From Bacteroidota bacterium (GTDB lineage Bacteria; Bacteroidota; Ignavibacteria; OLB7): a stretch of 64,000 bases of DNA. The position numbers and the translations under genes were made by a program. Shown one piece after another: positions 42,040 to 50,819 of this stretch (position 1 is its first letter; each line of letters opens with the position of its first letter). The stretch lies in assembly GCA_018266795.1 (NCBI GenBank), contig JAFDZV010000011.1:54129-118128 (forward strand), given 5' to 3'. The notes below the pieces were generated by a model that saw nothing but the letters and a program-made list of their open reading frames with translations, was not told where the DNA came from and made no database searches.

Positions 42040-42114
42040 TGGAGCCACCACTCGGACTTGAACCGAGGACCTGCTCATTACGAATGAGCTGCTCTACCAC
42101 TGAGCTATGGTGGC
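42040..42114 (-). tRNA. tRNA-Thr (anticodon CGT)
   Basis: 75 nt including an encoded 3' CCA. The acceptor stem GCCACCA pairs with TGGTGGC. The D arm GCTC-AGTGGTA-GAGC, the anticodon arm GCTCA-TTCGTAA-TGAGC with CGT, and the T arm CTCGG-TTCAAGT-CCGAG are all intact. Reads ACG codons. It borders the defence-like island on its 5' side. Confidence 0.97.
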
Positions 42115-42391: not shown

Positions 42392-43423
42392 TCATACGCC
42401 GGCGCATGATACACCCGGTTGTTGGACGACTGGTGGCTGGATGTTCCACTTCGGTGGATACCACTGCGGCAGAGGTTCTAGTTGTGGCGTGTACTTCTGC
42501 TTGATACGAGATCGCCCCGATTCGCCCTCGACGTCCGGGTGAACCACACGCGCATACTTGCTCACCTCGCAGAATACATTCTGGCAATCGATGAGCTGAA
42601 GCCTTCGTCCCCAGAGGTTCTGGAATCTCAGTCCAAGCCGCGCAAATTCTGCGTCCGCGCGCTCGGTCATGACCTGAATGACCTCGGCATCAGTCAGTCC
42701 CGCGACATCCTCAAAGCACTTGCGGATGCCGTCCCGCGCACCAGGCCCTGCGACAACGAACTCCATCTCCGAAAAGTCGATCAGCTCGCTGTAGTTGAGA
42801 TCGATTGCGAATTGGAATGCGAGGAAGTCCCCCAGCGACGGATAGCGGCGCAGCAGCTCGAAGACACTACGCAGCGATTTCGCCTTGACGCACTTTCGCG
42901 GCGCACCGTCAGCCATCATATGTTCGACAAGTCGAAGGTGGTTCCGATGTTTCCGTGGGCTTCCGAACGCTGGCGACGGCATGATGTAGGCTGCCGAGTA
43001 GATGCGTTGCCCATCTCCGATGAGTCGATCCAGAACCTTCGCGTACGCATCAAATGAGAACGCTCGCCAGCTCAGGATTCCGAATTTCGCACACAGCGCC
43101 TCCCACGTGTCGATTCGGTTGAAGAGCTTGAACAGGATCGTTCGAAAGAAGATCTCCTCGGGCTTCGGCGATCCCTCATAAATCACATGGCGGATCAGGT
43201 ACTGGCTTACCCGATCCGAGGCGCGGTAAGCGTTCGTGAAACGATGCGTGCCGAGAATCGGGTCTTCGGTCCACGGTGGCATGTTTCCCTGAACACGGCG
43301 CATGAACATCTCCTGACGCTCCCAGGCGAAGCGCCAATAGGTGTCGAACACAGGTGTCGTTCGCAGCACCGGCCCGTTCTTGAGGTGAATTTTGTAGGGA
43401 GTCCGCATTCTCAATCGGTCCAT
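42392..43423 (-). CDS. Putative DNA-base hypermodification protein (HMUDK/aGPT-PPlase helical-domain-like)
   Basis: 343 residues. Recognised from memory as like the helical domain found with 5-hmdU DNA kinases and glutamyl/putrescinyl-thymine pyrophosphorylases: IFFRTILFKLFNRIDTWEALCAKFG, FSFDAYAKVLDRLIGDGQRIYSAAYIMPSP, PSLGDFLAFQFAIDLNYSELIDFSEMEFVVAGPGARDGIRK. Such proteins are predicted to act on thymine derivatives or nucleotides; exact reaction unknown. No P-loop kinase motif. Its start overlaps the end of the ThsB-like gene by 13 bases. Last gene of the island operon. Confidence 0.7.
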   Translation of the reverse strand: MDRLRMRTPYKIHLKNGPVLRTTPVFDTYWRFAWERQEMFMRRVQGNMPPWTEDPILGTHRFTNAYRASDRVSQYLIRHVIYEGSPKPEEIFFRTILFKLFNRIDTWEALCAKFGILSWRAFSFDAYAKVLDRLIGDGQRIYSAAYIMPSPAFGSPRKHRNHLRLVEHMMADGAPRKCVKAKSLRSVFELLRRYPSLGDFLAFQFAIDLNYSELIDFSEMEFVVAGPGARDGIRKCFEDVAGLTDAEVIQVMTERADAEFARLGLRFQNLWGRRLQLIDCQNVFCEVSKYARVVHPDVEGESGRSRIKQKYTPQLEPLPQWYPPKWNIQPPVVQQPGVSCAGV

Positions 43424-43968
43424 TCGTCGCCTGTGCGGTTCTTGCCGAACGACGCTCGAGAGTTGTCAGGCTGCTTCGTGCTCTTTCGATTGTACGCCTC
43501 GTGAATCCGACTCTGGACGGTCGCGCCGTTCTCCGACCAGTTGTAGATGCTCGCAAATTCGCACCGGATGTTGTCGTAGAGCCGAGGAGGAACGGTTCTC
43601 GGGTTGTACTTCCCGCACTCAACGCTTGTGTGAGACTCGTAGTACGTGGGAAGCAGGATGCCAAGGAGGCCTGAACGTGGATTCAACTTCGTGTCCCGAA
43701 TCGATGAACCAATTTCCCAGTCGACGTGCTTCCGTTGCCAAGTCTGTGCGCCGATCAGGACGACGGTTACCGAAGTATCACGGAGATATTCATCGCGGAT
43801 CTTCTGTCGAATGGTCTCGGCCGGAAGGCTCGGGTCGATGTCGCCGTCCTGCACCGAGCCTGACACAATTGCCTCGAAGACGTTCCCAAAGCGAAGCTCG
43901 AAGATCCTCTTGTACGACTCGTCGAGCGCGTGATGATAGCTGACGAAAACCTTGTGCCTGTTGCTCAT
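43411..43968 (-). CDS. ThsB-like TIR-domain protein 1
   Basis: 185 residues. TIR-like (MTH538/DUF1863) domain: start HKVFVSYHHALDESYKRIFE, GSVQDGDID, SVTVVLIGAQTWQRKHVDWEIGSSI (conserved Glu in the WEI motif, the position of the NADase Glu in TIR domains), then GLLGILLP and PPRLYDNI. In Thoeris defence such proteins (ThsB) sense phage and make a cyclic-ADP-ribose signal. The start at 43968 (MSNRHKVF) is preferred over 43998. Co-directional with MazG-like gene 31 bases upstream. Confidence 0.85.
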   Translation of the reverse strand: MSNRHKVFVSYHHALDESYKRIFELRFGNVFEAIVSGSVQDGDIDPSLPAETIRQKIRDEYLRDTSVTVVLIGAQTWQRKHVDWEIGSSIRDTKLNPRSGLLGILLPTYYESHTSVECGKYNPRTVPPRLYDNIRCEFASIYNWSENGATVQSRIHEAYNRKSTKQPDNSRASFGKNRTGDEWTD

Positions 43969-43999
43969 ACTTTCCTCGCGAAGAGTAAGATATCTCACG

Positions 44000-45106
44000 C
44001 TACGTTCGGTCGTTGTTCGCGACCGGGGGTGTGTAGACGAGCTGGCGCTCGATGAGGTTCAGCGTTACATGCCCGCCGCCGCCGTCGCGCAAGGAGCGGA
44101 AGACGCGGTAGCCGTCGAGAATGGCGGCCTCCCACTGCCACAGCGGCACCATAGCCACTTCGAAACCCTCGACGAACTCTTCGACGGTCTTCAACAGGTC
44201 AAAGTCCACGTGATCGAGACCCTTGAAGAACTTGAGCTGTTTCGCACGGCTGAAGACGATCGCAGAGACGGCTTCCTCGATAACCCCTGCTCGAGCGCCG
44301 TCCTGTGCCTCGTCGATCTCGGGTCGGCTCTTCCGCTTGCTTCGCATGAGCGCACGCACTACTGGTGACCATCCGAGATGCACTGCATACGCGAAGTGGA
44401 AGATGTCATGATACCGGTACCCATCCGGGTCTTTGATGTTGTCGGTAAGGCGGTCGCCGAAGTTGATATCATTGCACCGCAGGATGACAGCTTTCTGCGT
44501 CCCGCGCGAGCGCTCGAGAAACTCGATGTGAAGTTGTCGAGGGAGTTGTTCTTCCACGTGCCAATCGTCATCAAAGAGCGGCGCGTAACTCCTCTCATCA
44601 GGCCAGCGGCTCCTTGTCTTCGCCGTGTTGCGGTCGGCGGCCTCGCAAAGCGAGATCCCACTGTCCTTGCTGATCTCCTTCAGCAAAGCCCATACATGTA
44701 GAAGACGTGGCTTAACTTCGTCGTTGCCCGATGTGCCAATCGATGCTAAGACATCGCCAACGGATGAACCAAAGTCGAGGAACGCCGTGAGACGAGAACG
44801 ACCCGATGTAAGATTTCCAATGTCCTCGTCGCCCATCAATTCATCGGTCAGACCGGGAGCGACAACTGTGGCCAAGCGAACGAAGTACCAGAGGAAGTCA
44901 CCGATTTCCTCGAGCATGCGGTGTCGGTAGACAGGATAAGCCTGCCTTTCTCGGTGCTCTTTCTTCAATTCGGCGACAATACTGCCGGCTTCGCCGAATA
45001 GCCCTGCTCCTAAAAGCGCTGTGTGATCCGGCTTGCCCGCGAGCCGGTCGGTCTTCTCCGCCGTCACTGCAAACTCATGGAGCCAATACAACGAGTCGTT
45101 AGTCAT
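44000..45106 (-). CDS. MazG-like nucleotide pyrophosphohydrolase with C-terminal extension
   Basis: 368 residues. N-terminal MazG-like helical domain: GLFGEAGSIVAELKKE (E39, E46) and LEEIGDFLWYFVRLA (E67, D70), giving a metal-binding ExxS...ExxD in place of the usual ExxE...ExxD. The C-terminal half (about 190-368: DGYRYHDIFHFAYAVHLGW, PEIDEAQDGARAGVIEEAVSAIVFSRA) looks like a second, related helical domain. Predicted to hydrolyse NTPs or modified nucleotides. Start set at 45106 (MTNDSLYW). Neighbours suggest nucleotide sanitising or modification in a defence setting. Confidence 0.75.
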   Translation of the reverse strand: MTNDSLYWLHEFAVTAEKTDRLAGKPDHTALLGAGLFGEAGSIVAELKKEHRERQAYPVYRHRMLEEIGDFLWYFVRLATVVAPGLTDELMGDEDIGNLTSGRSRLTAFLDFGSSVGDVLASIGTSGNDEVKPRLLHVWALLKEISKDSGISLCEAADRNTAKTRSRWPDERSYAPLFDDDWHVEEQLPRQLHIEFLERSRGTQKAVILRCNDINFGDRLTDNIKDPDGYRYHDIFHFAYAVHLGWSPVVRALMRSKRKSRPEIDEAQDGARAGVIEEAVSAIVFSRAKQLKFFKGLDHVDFDLLKTVEEFVEGFEVAMVPLWQWEAAILDGYRVFRSLRDGGGGHVTLNLIERQLVYTPPVANNDRT

Positions 45107-45139
45107 CAATCCTCCTTTATGCCCGACCACTTCCGTGGA

Positions 45140-45793
45140 CTAGCCGTCCGCCCGGTCCCCGCCAGACTGCTGGGTACTCCGCTTGTGCTTGGCGAACTCG
45201 AGCGGATCGTCCTGGAAGCCCCACTTGCTCTGCTCCTCAAGCCAGTGTGCGAAAGCCGCAGCGAGCTCCTCATCGAATACCTGATACCCCTGCGTCTTGC
45301 AGCAGATATCCCGGCCCGTCCTGCGAAACGGCCGAAACCGATTCGGGATCAGCGGCGCGGATGCGCCCCAGTAGACAAACTTCGTAGCCACGAGAAGCCG
45401 ATCAACATCAGTGTCCCACACAATGTTTGCCTTGTTCGGACGCCCCTTCTCCAAGCTGTGGTGCGAATTGGCCTGGATCCACCGCTTCCCATCACGGTGG
45501 TAAATGTTGTCGCCATAGATAACCTTCAGACTGCCGTTGAGGTCGGGGCGCTTCAGAAGGAAACGTGAATCGTTCCAGTAGGTGTCGAAGTCGAGAAGTT
45601 CGCTCACCTGCATTGCGTAGATGAGTCGCCCAGCGAAGTCATACCTCTTCTTGGCTCCAGTCCCGACAATCCAGTCACCGACCTTCGCATGGGCGCGGAT
45701 CGGCGGTTTACATGTGGCTAGAGTGCAAAATCCATGGAATGGATTCGGTGCGAACCCGTAGTCACGAGCAACAATGTATGAGTAGAGCTTCAT
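45140..45793 (-). CDS. Nmad2-like nucleotide-modification-associated protein
   Basis: 217 residues matching, from memory, the Nmad2 family: MKLYSYIVARDYGFAPNPFHGFCTLATCKPPIRAHAKVGDWIVGTG, IYAMQVSELLDFDTYWNDSRF, GDNIYHRDGKRWIQANSHHS, and FVYWGASAPLIPNRFRPF. Nmad proteins were named for their links with DNA base modification and restriction genes; biochemistry is unknown. The start codon overlaps the preceding ThsB-like gene's stop (ATGA), a sign of coupled translation. Confidence 0.75.
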   Translation of the reverse strand: MKLYSYIVARDYGFAPNPFHGFCTLATCKPPIRAHAKVGDWIVGTGAKKRYDFAGRLIYAMQVSELLDFDTYWNDSRFLLKRPDLNGSLKVIYGDNIYHRDGKRWIQANSHHSLEKGRPNKANIVWDTDVDRLLVATKFVYWGASAPLIPNRFRPFRRTGRDICCKTQGYQVFDEELAAAFAHWLEEQSKWGFQDDPLEFAKHKRSTQQSGGDRADG

Positions 45794-46275
45794 GCGCAGC
45801 TAAACCTCTTGATGTCCCAATTGGGAGTAGTCCGCGGGCTGCCCGTAGCGGGGTCGTCCCACTCGCGGGTCTTGCCATTGATCGCGTCCACAACACGTTT
45901 GCCGTGCCAGCCAACGACCACAGCGTCTCCGTACTTCCGAAGCTCGTCGGGAATGTCTGCATCAGTGGCACCTTGTGCGAAGACGCCAACAATGTTCTTG
46001 CCTTGCTCGACAGCATACTTGATTTCCCAGTTCACCCACTTGCTTTGCGCTGTGTCGTGCGAAATCAGAACGACGAGGGTGCTGGCCCATCGAATCTGTG
46101 GTGCGAGGATCTCTCGCTTGATGTAGTCCTCGTTCTGAGCTGCATTGGGCTTGGTGCTATTGATGGAGCTATCGCGCACGTTCATACCCGAACGGCTCAT
46201 GAGATCCTTCAGCTTCGGAAGAAGGTCATCGTTCTCATGTACATGAGAAATGAAGATGTTCTTTATGTCTGACAT
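45790..46275 (-). CDS. ThsB-like TIR-domain protein 2
   Basis: 161 residues. TIR-like domain: KNIFISHVHENDDLLPKL, MNVRDSSINSTKPNAA, WASTLVVLISHDTAQSKWVNWEIKYAVEQGKNIVGVF, ending KRFSCA. The WEI glutamate is conserved. Differs strongly from ThsB-like 1 (no GDID/PRSG blocks), as in Thoeris loci that carry several ThsB sensors for different phages. Start at 46275 (MSDIKNIF); the preceding gene's stop is six bases away. Confidence 0.85.
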   Translation of the reverse strand: MSDIKNIFISHVHENDDLLPKLKDLMSRSGMNVRDSSINSTKPNAAQNEDYIKREILAPQIRWASTLVVLISHDTAQSKWVNWEIKYAVEQGKNIVGVFAQGATDADIPDELRKYGDAVVVGWHGKRVVDAINGKTREWDDPATGSPRTTPNWDIKRFSCA

Positions 46276-46280
46276 GCTTC

Positions 46281-48323
46281 TCACTCCGCGTCGCCGACCG
46301 ATGTCGGCGGATAACATTGCTGCAAGCCGTGGAGGACGAGTTCCACGATTCGTTCCGCTGAACGTGTCATTGCTAGTTCTCTGTTCTCGTCAACGCTAAG
46401 TCCGTTCTTGAGACCTGAGATGCCGCATGCTGTCAACTCGGTTGCGATGGCGTCGTAGTCATCCCACTGCAGCTCCCGATCCGCGTAGAGTCGTCTCAGC
46501 TCCTCCGAGAACGGCAGCTGCACATGGTGGGCCCAAGTCAGCTCCGGACGGGCAATGCCATCGAGTGCGTCCAGGACAAGTCGGGCGCAGCCGCCGAACG
46601 CCCCAATAAGATATACCGGGCGCTGTGCCCGGATGCTGAGTAGCGTCTCCTCGAGAACTCCTGGCATGCGCCCCAGATAGCCATCTCCAATACGCCCAAT
46701 TTTTCCTCCGACAACGATGCGCGCCGCGAGCTCCCTAGTCTGTCGTTCGCGCATGACGGTCAGCCCCCGCGACCATGCGAGGCGGTGAAGAGCCGAGTCG
46801 GACGAAATCTCGACGTCGGGTGAAGCGACGAAGCTCGGGTCAACCGACTCGTCGATGTCCGCAGGCCGTTCGCACCGGCGCACCTCGACAAGAGGACCCA
46901 GTCGAGCTTCGTCACGCACCGAAGCGAGCATCGGCCATGCGAGGTATGTAATAAGCTCAGGGGCGGCTTGGTCCCGAGGCGGCTCGCCGCGCAGTTGCTC
47001 CACGATCGGGTCGTGCAGCAGGTCGGCAAGTTGAAGTGTGTACCCGTCGGCTTTAAGGTGTCCGCCGTAGGCCAGCCGCACGCCCGCCACCAGCAGGTAG
47101 CGGGACAGCTCAAGGAAGATCGAGTCCAAATGCGCCCTTCGAAGACCGAATCGACCAAGATCCTCTGCACCCGAGATCGACAGCGCGACCATGAGTCCGA
47201 GGCTTCTGAGGTCATAGGCATGTGCACGGCGTTCCAGCGGGGTCTCAACACGCACTCCCGTACGCCCCAGAACTTCGAGTTCCTCAGGACCGAGCGGCGG
47301 ATCGGGGTATAAGACTGGCCGGTTCTTGTCACGATGGACGATAGTGACCAACTCAGGACCCGCCGGGAGGATTTCGTCCTCCTCGTGCTTTCGCTGCTCC
47401 AGACTTTCTTTCGCGTAGGCGTGTCGCAACGACTCGCGGAGAAGAAGATCCACGACGTCTTGCGCTTGCCCCTTCCAGCGAATGACTGGCGTGTTGCCCA
47501 AGTACGGGAAGCGGCGGATCTCGCGCTCTTGGACGGCATCGACGATGACGACTGGACGCTGATAGTGCTTCGCGAGCAGCACCTCGCGACGGCACCAGGA
47601 ACGCGAGGAGTACGCGTCAGTCACAACGGCTAGCAGCGCCGTATCTTCGACGCCCTTCTCGATTGCGTTGCCGAACCGCGAGCCCGTCGAGATGTCACCA
47701 CTATCGAACCAGGTCTTCTCGGGCTGGGTGGCCGTCAAGTGGGCAAGCAACGTCTTCACCACGCGTGGCTCGCTCTCCAGATCCATCTTCGTGTGGCTGA
47801 GGAAGATCGTAACGGGCAGGGAGTCCTCGTTCTCGGTGTGCGGTCGAAGCCGGCGAATCAGCAGGTGAACGAGACGCCGCGCGATGAACTTGTGGCGTTC
47901 TTCGGTATTGTCGATCGCCCACGCGCGCAGAAAGTTCATGCCGCTCAGCCGAGTATCGATTGGCCACGCACTCTCCGTGAGCTGCACCGGCATGAATCGG
48001 TGTCCGGCCGCCTCGGTAAGCAGCTGCAACTTCGTTGCGTACTCGCCCCATGTCATTCCGCTCTTCGTTGACCGGCGGGCAGCAGCGGCCAGGTGGTCGT
48101 CTGCCAACAAGACTACGAGCACGCGATCGGCTTCGGTCGCCACGCGAGGCTCCGGCGGCTCGCCAGAGCCGTCGTCGGGCGTGAAGTATGTTGGAATTTG
48201 AAGGCCCGGGACTGCAGGGTCCGCATTCAGTACATCGTGTAGATACGCGGCTGCATCAGCGGCCTCTTTCGACGCCGTGTGGAATTCGAATTGCACGAGT
48301 AATGGAAACCGAACTGCGCTCAT
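46281..48323 (-). CDS. TIR-SLOG fusion protein (Thoeris-like effector/sensor)
   Basis: 680 residues. Residues 1-160 look like a degenerate TIR-like domain. 171-300 form a clear TIR domain: VTIFLSHTKMD, WFDSGDISTGSRFG, and SSRSWCRREVLLA with the catalytic-position E247. 345-600 resemble a SLOG/LSDAT Rossmann domain: VAGVRLAYGGHLKADGYTLQLADLL and RIVVGGKIGRIGDGYLGRMPGVLEE ... VYLIGAFGGCARLVLDAL. In Thoeris the SLOG of ThsA binds the TIR-made cyclic-ADPR signal; here it would be fused to TIR rather than SIR2. Start at 48323 (MSAVRFPL) with AAGGA about 10 bases upstream. First gene of the six-gene operon. Confidence 0.75.
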   Translation of the reverse strand: MSAVRFPLLVQFEFHTASKEAADAAAYLHDVLNADPAVPGLQIPTYFTPDDGSGEPPEPRVATEADRVLVVLLADDHLAAAARRSTKSGMTWGEYATKLQLLTEAAGHRFMPVQLTESAWPIDTRLSGMNFLRAWAIDNTEERHKFIARRLVHLLIRRLRPHTENEDSLPVTIFLSHTKMDLESEPRVVKTLLAHLTATQPEKTWFDSGDISTGSRFGNAIEKGVEDTALLAVVTDAYSSRSWCRREVLLAKHYQRPVVIVDAVQEREIRRFPYLGNTPVIRWKGQAQDVVDLLLRESLRHAYAKESLEQRKHEEDEILPAGPELVTIVHRDKNRPVLYPDPPLGPEELEVLGRTGVRVETPLERRAHAYDLRSLGLMVALSISGAEDLGRFGLRRAHLDSIFLELSRYLLVAGVRLAYGGHLKADGYTLQLADLLHDPIVEQLRGEPPRDQAAPELITYLAWPMLASVRDEARLGPLVEVRRCERPADIDESVDPSFVASPDVEISSDSALHRLAWSRGLTVMRERQTRELAARIVVGGKIGRIGDGYLGRMPGVLEETLLSIRAQRPVYLIGAFGGCARLVLDALDGIARPELTWAHHVQLPFSEELRRLYADRELQWDDYDAIATELTACGISGLKNGLSVDENRELAMTRSAERIVELVLHGLQQCYPPTSVGDAE

Positions 48324-48431
48324 GGTTGATTCATCCTTAGCCAACGATGCTTGCATGCAAACCGGTCGGGAGGATTTGCTGCCCGTGGTCGCCCTTCACC
48401 TTCTGTACTCCCTCAACGATCCGATAGCCAC

Positions 48432-48839
48432 CTATTGCAGCCCCCACGGCGGGATTACCAGTGTGGAGGAACCGTCCGGGATGAAGCTTCGGCAATAGCC
48501 GCTTTCGTTTCCGACGTGGCCGCCATGGCCGGGAGCAACGGTTGCGATCTGATTGCCGGCCGAATCGTACGTGACGGATGTTCCGGTGCCGGTTGTTGGA
48601 AATGTCATACCGTTGCCGCACGGATCGGCAATCCCCTGTTCATCGAAGCACCAGTAGGCAGAACCACAACAGTGGTACATCACAGTCCATGAACGATACT
48701 GCTCGTTGTATTCGTAAAGGTATTCCGAACAGCCGTCCTGCCCCACTACGTACCAGTATTGAAGATCTGCACGCGCGATGCCGTGAGCGGCTGTCAACAT
48801 GATGGCGGCTCCGATCACGGCGAAGATTGCTCGCTTCAT
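48432..48839 (-). CDS. Small exported protein, tandem paralogue A
   Basis: 135 residues. Signal peptide (KRAIFAVIGAAIMLTAAHGIARA). Mature part has several cysteines (CSEYLYEY, YHCCGSAYWCF, DPCGNG, YCRSF) and the shared motif YDSAGNQIATVAPGHGG seen in the next gene. The ATG at 48839 overlaps the stop of its paralogue (ATGA). Probably a periplasmic or surface protein with disulphides; function unknown. Confidence 0.65.
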   Translation of the reverse strand: MKRAIFAVIGAAIMLTAAHGIARADLQYWYVVGQDGCSEYLYEYNEQYRSWTVMYHCCGSAYWCFDEQGIADPCGNGMTFPTTGTGTSVTYDSAGNQIATVAPGHGGHVGNESGYCRSFIPDGSSTLVIPPWGLQ

Positions 48840-49252
48840 CAGTTCAATCCCCCCATGATGCTTGCCGATATCATGAGCGTGGCGCTGTAGTCCTGGGTGA
48901 AGCATACGCCGTTACCACTGCTTCCGGATGAATACACGCCGCCGGTACCCGGTGCAACGGAACAGATAAGATTGCCGTTGCCATCGAACGTTGCAGTCGT
49001 CGCCCCACTGCCACCGGGAGGCATGGTAGTTCCGTCACAGTGCCATCCGTTATCGAGCCATCCGCACTGGTTGGGATCGTCACAATCGCGGGTGAGCATC
49101 TTGTAGCAATTATTGTCCAGCGTGATCAGGATGATATCCGTACAGTGTTCACCAACTTCTGAATGAAGATGTTCAACTTTCGTTGTTGCATGCGCTACCG
49201 TTGTGGGAAGACAAAGCGCCGCCATGACCAAGAGGCCGGCAAGAATTTTCAT
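48839..49252 (-). CDS. Small exported protein, tandem paralogue B
   Basis: 137 residues. Signal peptide (KILAGLLVMAALCLPTTVAHA). Shares the FDGNGNLICSVAPGTGG theme, four to six cysteines and length with paralogue A, so the two arose by duplication. ThsB/TIR operon is directly downstream but not coupled. Function unknown; stop overlaps paralogue A's start. Confidence 0.65.
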   Translation of the reverse strand: MKILAGLLVMAALCLPTTVAHATTKVEHLHSEVGEHCTDIILITLDNNCYKMLTRDCDDPNQCGWLDNGWHCDGTTMPPGGSGATTATFDGNGNLICSVAPGTGGVYSSGSSGNGVCFTQDYSATLMISASIMGGLN

Positions 49253-49266
49253 GGTTGTCTCCAGAG

Positions 49267-49887
49267 TTATTTGATGGTGTACAGGGGTTGTGTGTCTGTG
49301 CAATCGAGAACGGTTCTGCGGCGCGACATTACCATGGGTGCTGTCAAGTCAGGCCGGACAAGCATCACCAAATGCACTCTCTTCCCGATGTAGTGCGAAA
49401 GATCCACACTTCGCTTGAACGAGATAACGGTATCAATCGGAGCTGGCGTGTCGCAGTCAATTTCGGGTGATATCTGCTCCAGGAGCTTTCCCAATGAATC
49501 GCGCAGCCCTATCCGCACTTGCCATAACACGTGGAGCGGAACCCGCCTGAACTCAGGAGGCGGCATAGCTGTGACACGTACAACGGAATAAGCATCGCAT
49601 GCAATCGCCATTCCGGGTGTGACCATGATGGCATCGGTAGCATATGTCTGTTGCCAGAATGCATACGAGGTTATGTCGGTTGAACCTGGAACTTCCGAAA
49701 ACACCAGTGCCGTGGACTGCTGGCCATCAGTCAGCACGGCGCGCGTGATCAGGTTCGTTGCCGCATACGATGCCGTGTATTCGATCCGTGTAGCCTTCGA
49801 TGGTGCCGGCGTGGCGGTTTGTGCGTCTACCTGGGCGGACACAAGAGCAAGAAGCAGGACAGCGGCGAATGCTGGTGATCGCCTCAT
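49267..49887 (-). CDS. Exported protein, intact relative of the 27101 copy
   Basis: 206 residues with a signal peptide (MRRSPAFAAVLLLALVSAQVDAQ) identical in theme to the truncated 27101 gene. The body is beta-rich (TSYAFWQQTYATDAIMVTPGMAIACDAYSVVRVTAM, DLSHYIGKRVHLVMLVRPDL) with no catalytic motif. Ribosome binding site GGAGGA. First gene of a likely operon with the two small exported proteins. Function unknown. Confidence 0.65.
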   Translation of the reverse strand: MRRSPAFAAVLLLALVSAQVDAQTATPAPSKATRIEYTASYAATNLITRAVLTDGQQSTALVFSEVPGSTDITSYAFWQQTYATDAIMVTPGMAIACDAYSVVRVTAMPPPEFRRVPLHVLWQVRIGLRDSLGKLLEQISPEIDCDTPAPIDTVISFKRSVDLSHYIGKRVHLVMLVRPDLTAPMVMSRRRTVLDCTDTQPLYTIK

Positions 49888-49964
49888 AACAGATCCTCCA
49901 TTCAAATGAACAATGGCGGCGGGAGGTGCCGCGAACATACATGTGTGGCATAGTTAACGGCGGC

Positions 49965-50459: not shown

Positions 50460-50819
50460 TCACACCCCTTCCACCCGATCGATGGTACGCTCGTTCCGCA
50501 CGTTCCCCGTGTTGAGCGTGGAGGAAGGTTCCACCAGCATCAGCCAGACCTCCTCCTCCGCAACCGGCCGGTGCTCCACGCCGCGCGGCACCAGCAGCAT
50601 CTCCCCTTCGTTCAACGTCACCACGCGATCGCGAAACTCCAGCCGGAGCGTTCCCTTCAGAACAAGGAACAGCTCGTCCTCCGCCTCGTGGTGATGCCAG
50701 AGGAATTCTCCCTGCACGCGTGCAAGTTTCACGGCCGTATCGTTCACCCGGGCGGCGAGCCGCGGGCTCCAGAGCGCATCGATGCTCCCGAATGCCTCAT
50801 GCAGATTCAACGGTTCCAT
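50460..50819 (-). CDS. Cupin-domain protein
   Basis: 119 residues, a single small beta-barrel cupin. Cupin motif 1 WHHHEAEDELFLVLKG with the metal histidines and glutamate, and motif 2 LVPRGVEHRPVAEEE. Family members bind a metal and range from dioxygenases to isomerases; no substrate assignable. It overlaps the 3' end of the upstream methyltransferase gene by 23 bases. Confidence 0.85.
   Translation of the reverse strand: MEPLNLHEAFGSIDALWSPRLAARVNDTAVKLARVQGEFLWHHHEAEDELFLVLKGTLRLEFRDRVVTLNEGEMLLVPRGVEHRPVAEEEVWLMLVEPSSTLNTGNVRNERTIDRVEGV

Follow-up and report, generated by a model that had tools for sequence, protein, structure and literature searches.

An operon of TIR and nucleotide-enzyme genes

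The window, that is, the whole stretch of 64,000 nucleotides that was analyzed, contains a minus-strand operon of six genes at positions 42392 to 48356, in which a trio of nucleotide-enzyme genes is joined by genes for two ThsB-type TIR proteins and one TIR-SLOG protein. Consecutive genes overlap or abut one another (gaps of -37, -4, 9, 1, and -13 bp), and a tRNA-Thr(CGT) gene (42040 to 42114, minus strand) lies at the edge of the cassette. The TIR-SLOG protein, a candidate effector of 691 amino acids (46281 to 48356), is the sole SLOG protein of the operon and consists of a conserved N-terminal domain (residues 1 to 175) that carries no Pfam name, TIR_2 at about residues 184 to 272, and SLOG LD_cluster2 at residues 388 to 661 (Pfam, E = 7e-63). 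Next to it lies the gene for ThsB1 (45790 to 46317), which matches both the Pfam ThsB_TIR profile (E = 7e-24) and the PADLOC ThsB profile (E = 6.7e-56). The remaining genes encode an Nmad2 protein (45140 to 45793; PF18753, E = 1.3e-67, 227.6 bits against a cutoff of 26.1, whole domain), a predicted MazG nucleotide pyrophosphohydrolase domain fused to MazG_C (44000 to 45130; PF03819, E = 1.5e-4, and PF18722, E = 1e-78), ThsB2 (43411 to 43998; PF08937 ThsB_TIR, E = 2.1e-16), and an HMUDK_hel protein (42392 to 43423; PF18723, E = 1.3e-114), all on the minus strand.

The initial annotation singled out HMUDK-helical-like, MazG-like, and Nmad2-like proteins at 42392 to 45793. Pfam confirms all three with strong matches, apart from MazG proper, which is marginal (22.4 bits against a cutoff of 22), and the HMUDK-like protein is a helical domain alone. 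The same span also includes the ThsB2 gene, and the trio is not a unit in itself but half of a six-gene cassette. Because the identical gene order recurs across other phyla, this grouping does not reflect chance. Among the six proteins, PADLOC and NCBIfam gave no match to a ThsA effector (SIR2-SLOG or TM-macro), profile searches found no nucleotidyltransferase that could be the CD-NTase cyclase marking CBASS, and Pfam found no restriction partner, transferase, or nuclease.

Retained residues and predicted folds

The Glu at the catalytic position is retained in all three TIR domains. In the TIR-SLOG protein, the TIR motif SxWCxxE with E258 and the SLOG glycine motifs are invariant in 9 homologues; in ThsB1, which can be aligned to B. 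cereus ThsB, the catalytic-position Glu98 is invariant in 20 homologues; and in ThsB2, W94 and E95 are invariant in 10 homologues. A Tyr at the active site characterizes ThsB of the deoxynucleoside transferase type (PMC11204291), and this type was rejected for all three TIR domains, which have Phe at that position. In the fusion protein, the homologue alignment shows conservation of E47, E54, K56, K57, E74/E75, and D78 in MazG and of Y238, H241-D242, H245, D277, and E286 (HDxxH type) in MazG_C. The ExxE/ExxD metal site of MazG retains E47, E75, and D78, with Ser50 in place of the second Glu of ExxE, a usual metal ligand.

The analysis shows domain content, operon structure, and retained catalytic-position residues, along with horizontal transfer, constant and exchangeable parts, and predicted folds. 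The profiles of HMUDK_hel and Nmad2 had no meaningful match among PDB sequences, and therefore their folds were predicted. The AlphaFold2 model of HMUDK_hel (pLDDT, 93.5) resembles a phage 5-PmdU glycinyltransferase, the queuosine salvage enzyme DUF2419, and HhH DNA glycosylases, with Z scores of 7 to 11, a size that helical proteins can reach by chance. Individual comparisons gave a Z of 10.9 and an rmsd of 3.9 over 223 aligned residues for 8z2n, a Z of ~10 for DUF2419, and a Z of 7 to 9 for AlkA/OGG1-type proteins; Foldseek matches are weak (E = 0.1), and the glycosylase-like fold is a tentative prediction. The Nmad2 model (pLDDT, 76.6) matches ASCH, YTH, EVE, and McrB-N structures in the PDB; the best Foldseek hit is weak (ASCH, E = 0.027), and YTH structures give a Z of ~8 with an rmsd of 3.5 to 3.9 over ~135 residues. 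A PUA-like (ASCH/YTH/EVE) fold is the tentative prediction for Nmad2. Such folds are typical of modified-base readers, and some ASCH proteins are enzymes too.

Horizontal transfer and exchangeable parts

The cassette has been horizontally transferred. Homologues of the operon with 66 to 83% identity per protein are found in Planctomycetota, Myxococcota, Burkholderiales, Spirochaetes, Actinomycetota, and Azotobacter, the six-gene operon is absent from all 15 of the nearest relatives searched, and the chromosomal genes flanking it are only 59 to 62% identical to those of a congener that has no cassette. Synteny with a congeneric genome reaches the tRNA-Thr(CGT) gene and is lost beyond it. Classical tRNA-end integration was considered and is unsupported, because the cassette is located 5′ of tRNA-Thr and a repeat search found no attachment-type direct repeats; no link between the cassette and mobile genes was found within the window. 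In two relatives (L011 and L013), the cassette is found inside a type I restriction-modification (R-M) operon, with hsdM on one side and hsdS on the other. Its ends overlap the R-M genes; in L013, whose hsdM was identified by Pfam, each of the two overlaps is 4 bp long.

Comparison of loci reveals a constant core of Nmad2 and ThsB1 with a variable effector, which may be TIR-SLOG2, TIR plus SLOG3, a patatin phospholipase, or SLATT. All 34 loci that have a close Nmad2 also carry a ThsB-type TIR gene (33 by profile, plus L008), mostly directly next to it. The proposed tie between the trio and TIR proteins is thus supported, and one outcome that the initial annotation named as refuting its reading, a lack of association with TIR elsewhere, is contradicted. 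This association also bears on whether the TIR and SLOG proteins act as an ordinary Thoeris system, doing everything while the nucleotide genes are independent hitchhikers. The strong score of ThsB1 against PADLOC ThsB and the role of SLOG as the signal-binding domain in known ThsA (PMC11204291) are in keeping with that explanation, but Nmad2 adjoins ThsB1 in nearly all close-Nmad2 loci (in the window the two genes overlap), the operon lacks a ThsA-type effector, and a slot for MazG_C, thymidylate synthase (TS), or radical SAM is occupied in 34/34 of these loci; we consider independent hitchhiking quite unlikely.

Exactly one of MazG_C, TS, and radical SAM occurs in 82 of the 88 HMUDK_hel loci. 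A dTMP kinase accompanies TS in 26/31 TS loci, and one operon of otherwise matching gene content (L012) has a TS gene (PF00303, E = 1.5e-16) in the MazG_C slot. These patterns fit alternative enzymes making alternative products. MazG_C (or TS with dTMP kinase, or radical SAM) and HMUDK_hel might thus make a modified pyrimidine nucleotide whose own role would be that of an alarm or of an inhibitory decoy; it would be read by the SLOG or Nmad2 protein, and phage interference would trigger the TIR effector. The conserved HDxxH-type residues of MazG_C are consistent with such synthesis, as are the thymidine-nucleotide defense signals known from Clover (PMC12265719). On the other hand, the genome lacks ThyA, loci of the MazG type have no obvious synthetic enzyme unless MazG_C is one, and the substitution of uracil-DNA glycosylase (UDG) for HMUDK_hel, with which it never co-occurs (0 co-occurrences; Fisher P = 2e-4), points to base removal. 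Overall, we regard signal synthesis as somewhat unlikely.

The exchange with UDG likewise bears on the self-marking idea of the initial annotation, by which host DNA would receive a thymine-type modified base from the trio and be spared by other genes. Phages commonly carry HMUDK_hel (490 of 50,697 phage records, at <60% identity), its predicted fold resembles the phage 5-PmdU glycinyltransferase, and relatives carry the cassette inside type I R-M operons. However, the whole genome has no PF00303 match to a ThyA-type dUMP hydroxymethylase/synthase and only ThyX is present, a Walker A motif or P-loop kinase is absent from all six operon proteins, HMUDK_hel included, and the operon has no restriction partner, transferase, or nuclease. 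Moreover, Nmad2 has a predicted reader-type fold and no homologue in the 50,697 phage records at tblastn sensitivity. The DNA “writer” reading is weakened by these results, and self-marking appears highly improbable; the cassette looks more like a virus alarm. The other suggestion of the initial annotation, a nucleotide acting as a signal for the TIR proteins, may hold.

Proposed working and relation to known systems

The best reading is that of a Thoeris-like abortive-infection system that guards pyrimidine nucleotides or bases. We infer its trigger, signal chemistry, and killing step as follows. Nmad2, with its base-reader-type fold, HMUDK_hel, with its glycosylase-type fold, and MazG/MazG_C would form a nucleotide module that recognizes or processes an abnormal pyrimidine base or nucleotide arising in the course of phage infection. 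With the license that this gives them, the ThsB-type TIR enzymes would produce a signal derived from NAD. The TIR-SLOG protein would bind the signal through its SLOG domain, whereupon its TIR domain would destroy NAD+ and stop the infected cell. We give this mobile six-gene antiviral cassette, as a whole, about an even chance of having been read correctly. Counting against it are the weak Foldseek matches, the marginal MazG domain with its Ser50, and the existence of enzymes among PUA-like ASCH proteins. The sharing of one slot by MazG_C, TS, and radical SAM also counts against the alarm reading, as it is likewise expected from a synthesis pathway with alternative products.

A very unlikely variant is a base-exchange alarm, in which HMUDK_hel, or UDG in relatives, would free one specific pyrimidine base from the DNA or nucleotides of the phage, the TIR partner would exchange nicotinamide for that base on ADP-ribose, and the resulting base-ADPR would act as a second messenger to SLOG, patatin, or SLATT effectors. 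If true, it would account for the joint occurrence of a PUA-like protein, a TIR enzyme, and a base-releasing fold. Base exchange by TIR with heterocycles is known (PMC11204291), and no case in which a dedicated partner frees the base was found in the literature searched.

The alarm reading would shift proteins named for base modification from “DNA writers” towards a NAD-signaling immune cassette. Its logic is modular: TIR and Nmad2 are a fixed pair, one slot is of the glycosylase type, another takes MazG, TS, or radical SAM, and the killer can be exchanged. This modularity makes the role of nucleotide enzymes in defense testable by part swapping. The reading also suggests that some TIR systems may monitor nucleotides of the uracil or thymine type, a frequent target of phage alteration.

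Like Thoeris, the cassette has ThsB-type TIR proteins that retain the catalytic-position Glu, and its candidate effector contains SLOG and is of the NAD-consuming type. That effector, however, is TIR-SLOG (LD_cluster2) rather than SIR2-SLOG or TM-macro, and the cassette adds a constant Nmad2 partner and the MazG_C and HMUDK_hel genes. It has the HMUDK_hel domain family in common with the phage thymidine hypermodification pathway (ViI and M6; 5-hmdU DNA kinase) but is a host-side operon with TIR effectors that lacks the ThyA-like hydroxymethylase, P-loop kinase, and transferase. Unlike CBASS, it has no CD-NTase cyclase. The nucleotide-centric conflict systems of Burroughs et al. 2015 reportedly include SLOG, TIR, and SLATT components.

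A defensive role has already been predicted for the cassette's domain families, and for some it has been tested. In the parts of the DefensePredictor paper that describe them (PMC13092281), MazG, MazG-C, aGPT-Pplase, and NMAD are predicted defense domains, with Burroughs et al. 2015 cited for the predicted roles of several cassette domains; systems with 5-hmdU kinase, thymidylate synthase, and NMAD domains are validated, those with 5-hmdU kinase and thymidylate synthase domains being protective in E. coli. Compared by description, those systems (5-hmdU kinase, thymidylate synthase, dNMP kinase, and NMAD) draw on the same domain families as the cassette, which differs in carrying MazG_C in contrast to TS and dNMP kinase and in its TIR and SLOG domains, which these parts of the text leave unmentioned (PMC13092281).

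Operon architecture and part exchange

The initial annotation had grouped HMUDK-helical-like, MazG-like, and Nmad2-like genes (42392 to 45793) as a trio. Pfam confirmed all three as real genes, but a TIR gene already lies within that interval, and the transcription unit is roughly double its size. This minus-strand cassette encodes TIR-SLOG (46281 to 48356), a ThsB1-type TIR (45790 to 46317), Nmad2 (45140 to 45793), MazG plus MazG_C (44000 to 45130), a ThsB2-type TIR (43411 to 43998), and HMUDK_hel (42392 to 43423), with successive intergenic gaps of -37, -4, 9, 1, and -13 bp. Pfam matches were far above cutoff except for MazG proper, which is marginal and has Ser in one usual metal-ligand position; in MazG_C, an H-D-x-x-H pattern is invariant, accompanied by acidic residues. 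The ThsB proteins were the only named-system component recognized by PADLOC. Between the cassette and an rRNA-methyltransferase-like gene at 50797, three overlapping small ORFs without Pfam matches (48432 to 49938), of which two or more start with a secretion-signal-like segment, occupy the region of lowest G+C in the window (0.54).

To compare loci, we built one profile per family and then annotated neighborhoods. Scanning genome contigs with the HMUDK_hel alignment gave 80 loci; plasmid and same-phylum loci were added via Nmad2 itself, so that share of the sample was not HMUDK selected. ThsB1 was present in all 34 close-Nmad2 loci (33 by profile and L008 by separate evidence), of which 23 carried MazG_C, 10 TS, and 2 radical SAM, and 26 carried HMUDK_hel and 5 UDG. 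MazG_C and TS tend to exclude each other, with one locus holding both, 22 only MazG_C, and 9 only TS (P = 1e-5). HMUDK_hel and UDG do likewise, occurring at 26 and 5 loci and never together (P = 2e-4). Neither P value takes relatedness into account. Exactly one of MazG_C, TS, and radical SAM occurred in 82 of 88 HMUDK_hel loci, across which dTMP kinase accompanies TS. The cleanest instance of part exchange is L012, where ThsB1, Nmad2, ThsB2, and HMUDK_hel are 74 to 83% identical to those of the window, a TS gene (PF00303) fills the slot of MazG_C, and in place of the effector there is an unrelated protein predicted to lie in the membrane. Effectors elsewhere include TIR-SLOG2, TIR plus SLOG3, patatin phospholipase, and SLATT. 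A changing killer on a fixed core is the pattern of abortive-infection signaling systems such as CBASS and Thoeris.

A reduced form (L114, 6610 to 10000) comprises MazG_C, TIR, Nmad2, a second TIR-like protein, and a SLATT membrane effector. It has neither HMUDK_hel nor UDG, and the glycosylase-type slot may therefore be dispensable.

Horizontal transfer and defense surroundings

The operon recurs, whole, clipped by contig ends, or with one part swapped (L012), at loci L006 to L014 in Planctomycetota, Myxococcota/Polyangiaceae, Azotobacter, Microbacteriaceae, Spirochaetes, and Burkholderiales. This identity across distant taxa (~66 to 83% per protein), the absence of the TIR-SLOG gene from the 15 nearest genomes searched, a congener among them, and a lower G+C (0.54 to 0.61 in the cassette region versus about 0.62 to 0.65) indicate that the cassette was acquired horizontally. 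So do its flanks: the congener's aminopeptidase and methyltransferase are only 59% and 62% identical to the neighboring genes of the window, and its aminopeptidase still adjoins tRNA-Thr(CGT), beyond which synteny is lost.

In L013 (988 to 15322), the whole cassette lies between HsdM (PF12161/PF02384) and HsdS (PF01420) of a type I restriction-modification operon, overlapping these genes by 4 bp at both ends, with a Schlafen-AlbA_2 gene and then HsdR downstream; L011 (1128 to 15346) has the same layout. HsdR lies immediately upstream of the cassette in L008 and L014, and HsdS immediately downstream in L010. On a Cupriavidus plasmid (L088, 9460 to 11634), genes for a SIR2-family protein, with a C terminus SLOG-like by eye, and a ThsB-type TIR adjoin a TIR, Nmad2, MazG, and UDG cassette and may form a complete Thoeris pair.

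According to the available text of the DefensePredictor study (PMC13092281), validated systems include 5-hmdU kinase, thymidylate synthase, dNMP kinase, and NMAD domains, listed across systems and not necessarily together, and systems with MazG, MazG-C, aGPT-Pplase, NMAD, and UDG are predicted to be defensive, citing Burroughs et al. 2015. TIR and SLOG, both present in our cassette, are unmentioned in that text. To this our analysis adds the form with six genes including TIR and SLOG, how widely it is distributed, the logic of its slots, and two predicted folds (HMUDK_hel and Nmad2).

Functional modules and proposed mechanism

HMUDK_hel has no P-loop. The closest match to its AlphaFold2 model (pLDDT 93.5) was the 5-PmdU glycinyltransferase of phage PaMx11 (Z 10.9 and rmsd 3.9 over 223 residues), followed by queuosine salvage enzymes of the DUF2419 family (Z of about 10 at rmsd 6) and, at Z 7 to 9, HhH DNA glycosylases. 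The Nmad2 model (pLDDT 76.6) resembled ASCH, YTH, EVE, and McrB N-terminal domains. Each of these matches is weak on its own, but as lists they are coherent. The exchange of HMUDK_hel for UDG is consistent with a base-handling role. The proposal that the trio marks self DNA by phage-type hypermodification is unlikely, because the genome carries ThyX and no ThyA-type enzyme, so that the known 5-hydroxymethyl-dUMP route is missing, the cassette has no kinase or transferase, and Nmad2 was found in none of 50,697 phage records (HMUDK_hel was found in 490). The main rival to the reading that we favor, synthesis of a modified nucleotide as a signal or decoy, seems to us rather unlikely.

All three TIR domains keep a catalytic-position glutamate (E98 in ThsB1, E95 in ThsB2, and E258 in TIR-SLOG). 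Where the deoxynucleoside-transferase-like ThsB subfamily has an active-site tyrosine (PMC11204291), all three have phenylalanine, as does Bacillus cereus ThsB, with positions matched by reading alignments. Residues 1 to 175 of TIR-SLOG form a conserved domain without a Pfam name, possibly a degenerate TIR-like fold.

Beyond the directly established architecture, retained residues, swaps, transfer, and defense context, we favor, with a confidence that is evenly balanced, a Thoeris-like alarm. Nmad2, HMUDK_hel, and MazG_C would recognize or process an abnormal pyrimidine base or nucleotide, the ThsB enzymes would then emit an NAD-derived signal, and SLOG would bind it, whereupon the TIR of TIR-SLOG would deplete NAD+. 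A base-exchange version, in which a TIR joins ADP-ribose to a freed pyrimidine base, making base-ADPR the messenger, appears improbable.

Other Nmad2 and HMUDK_hel families

A divergent Nmad2 subfamily (L096 and L116 to L124; 40 to 180 bits on our Nmad2 profile) had no TIR, MazG_C, TS, radical SAM, HMUDK_hel, or UDG nearby at any of its 10 loci. A second large HMUDK_hel operon family (L070, L058, L077, and about 50 others) accounts for 52 of the 62 loci that lack Nmad2. Its operons encode an ImmA-like peptidase and a divergent protein that looks like TS to the eye but has no match in Pfam. Many also have an XRE regulator and a small acyl-carrier-like protein, likewise unmatched in Pfam, and some have a phosphopantetheinyl transferase (PF01648). 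The carrier hints at chemistry on a nucleotide that involves acyl or aminoacyl groups.
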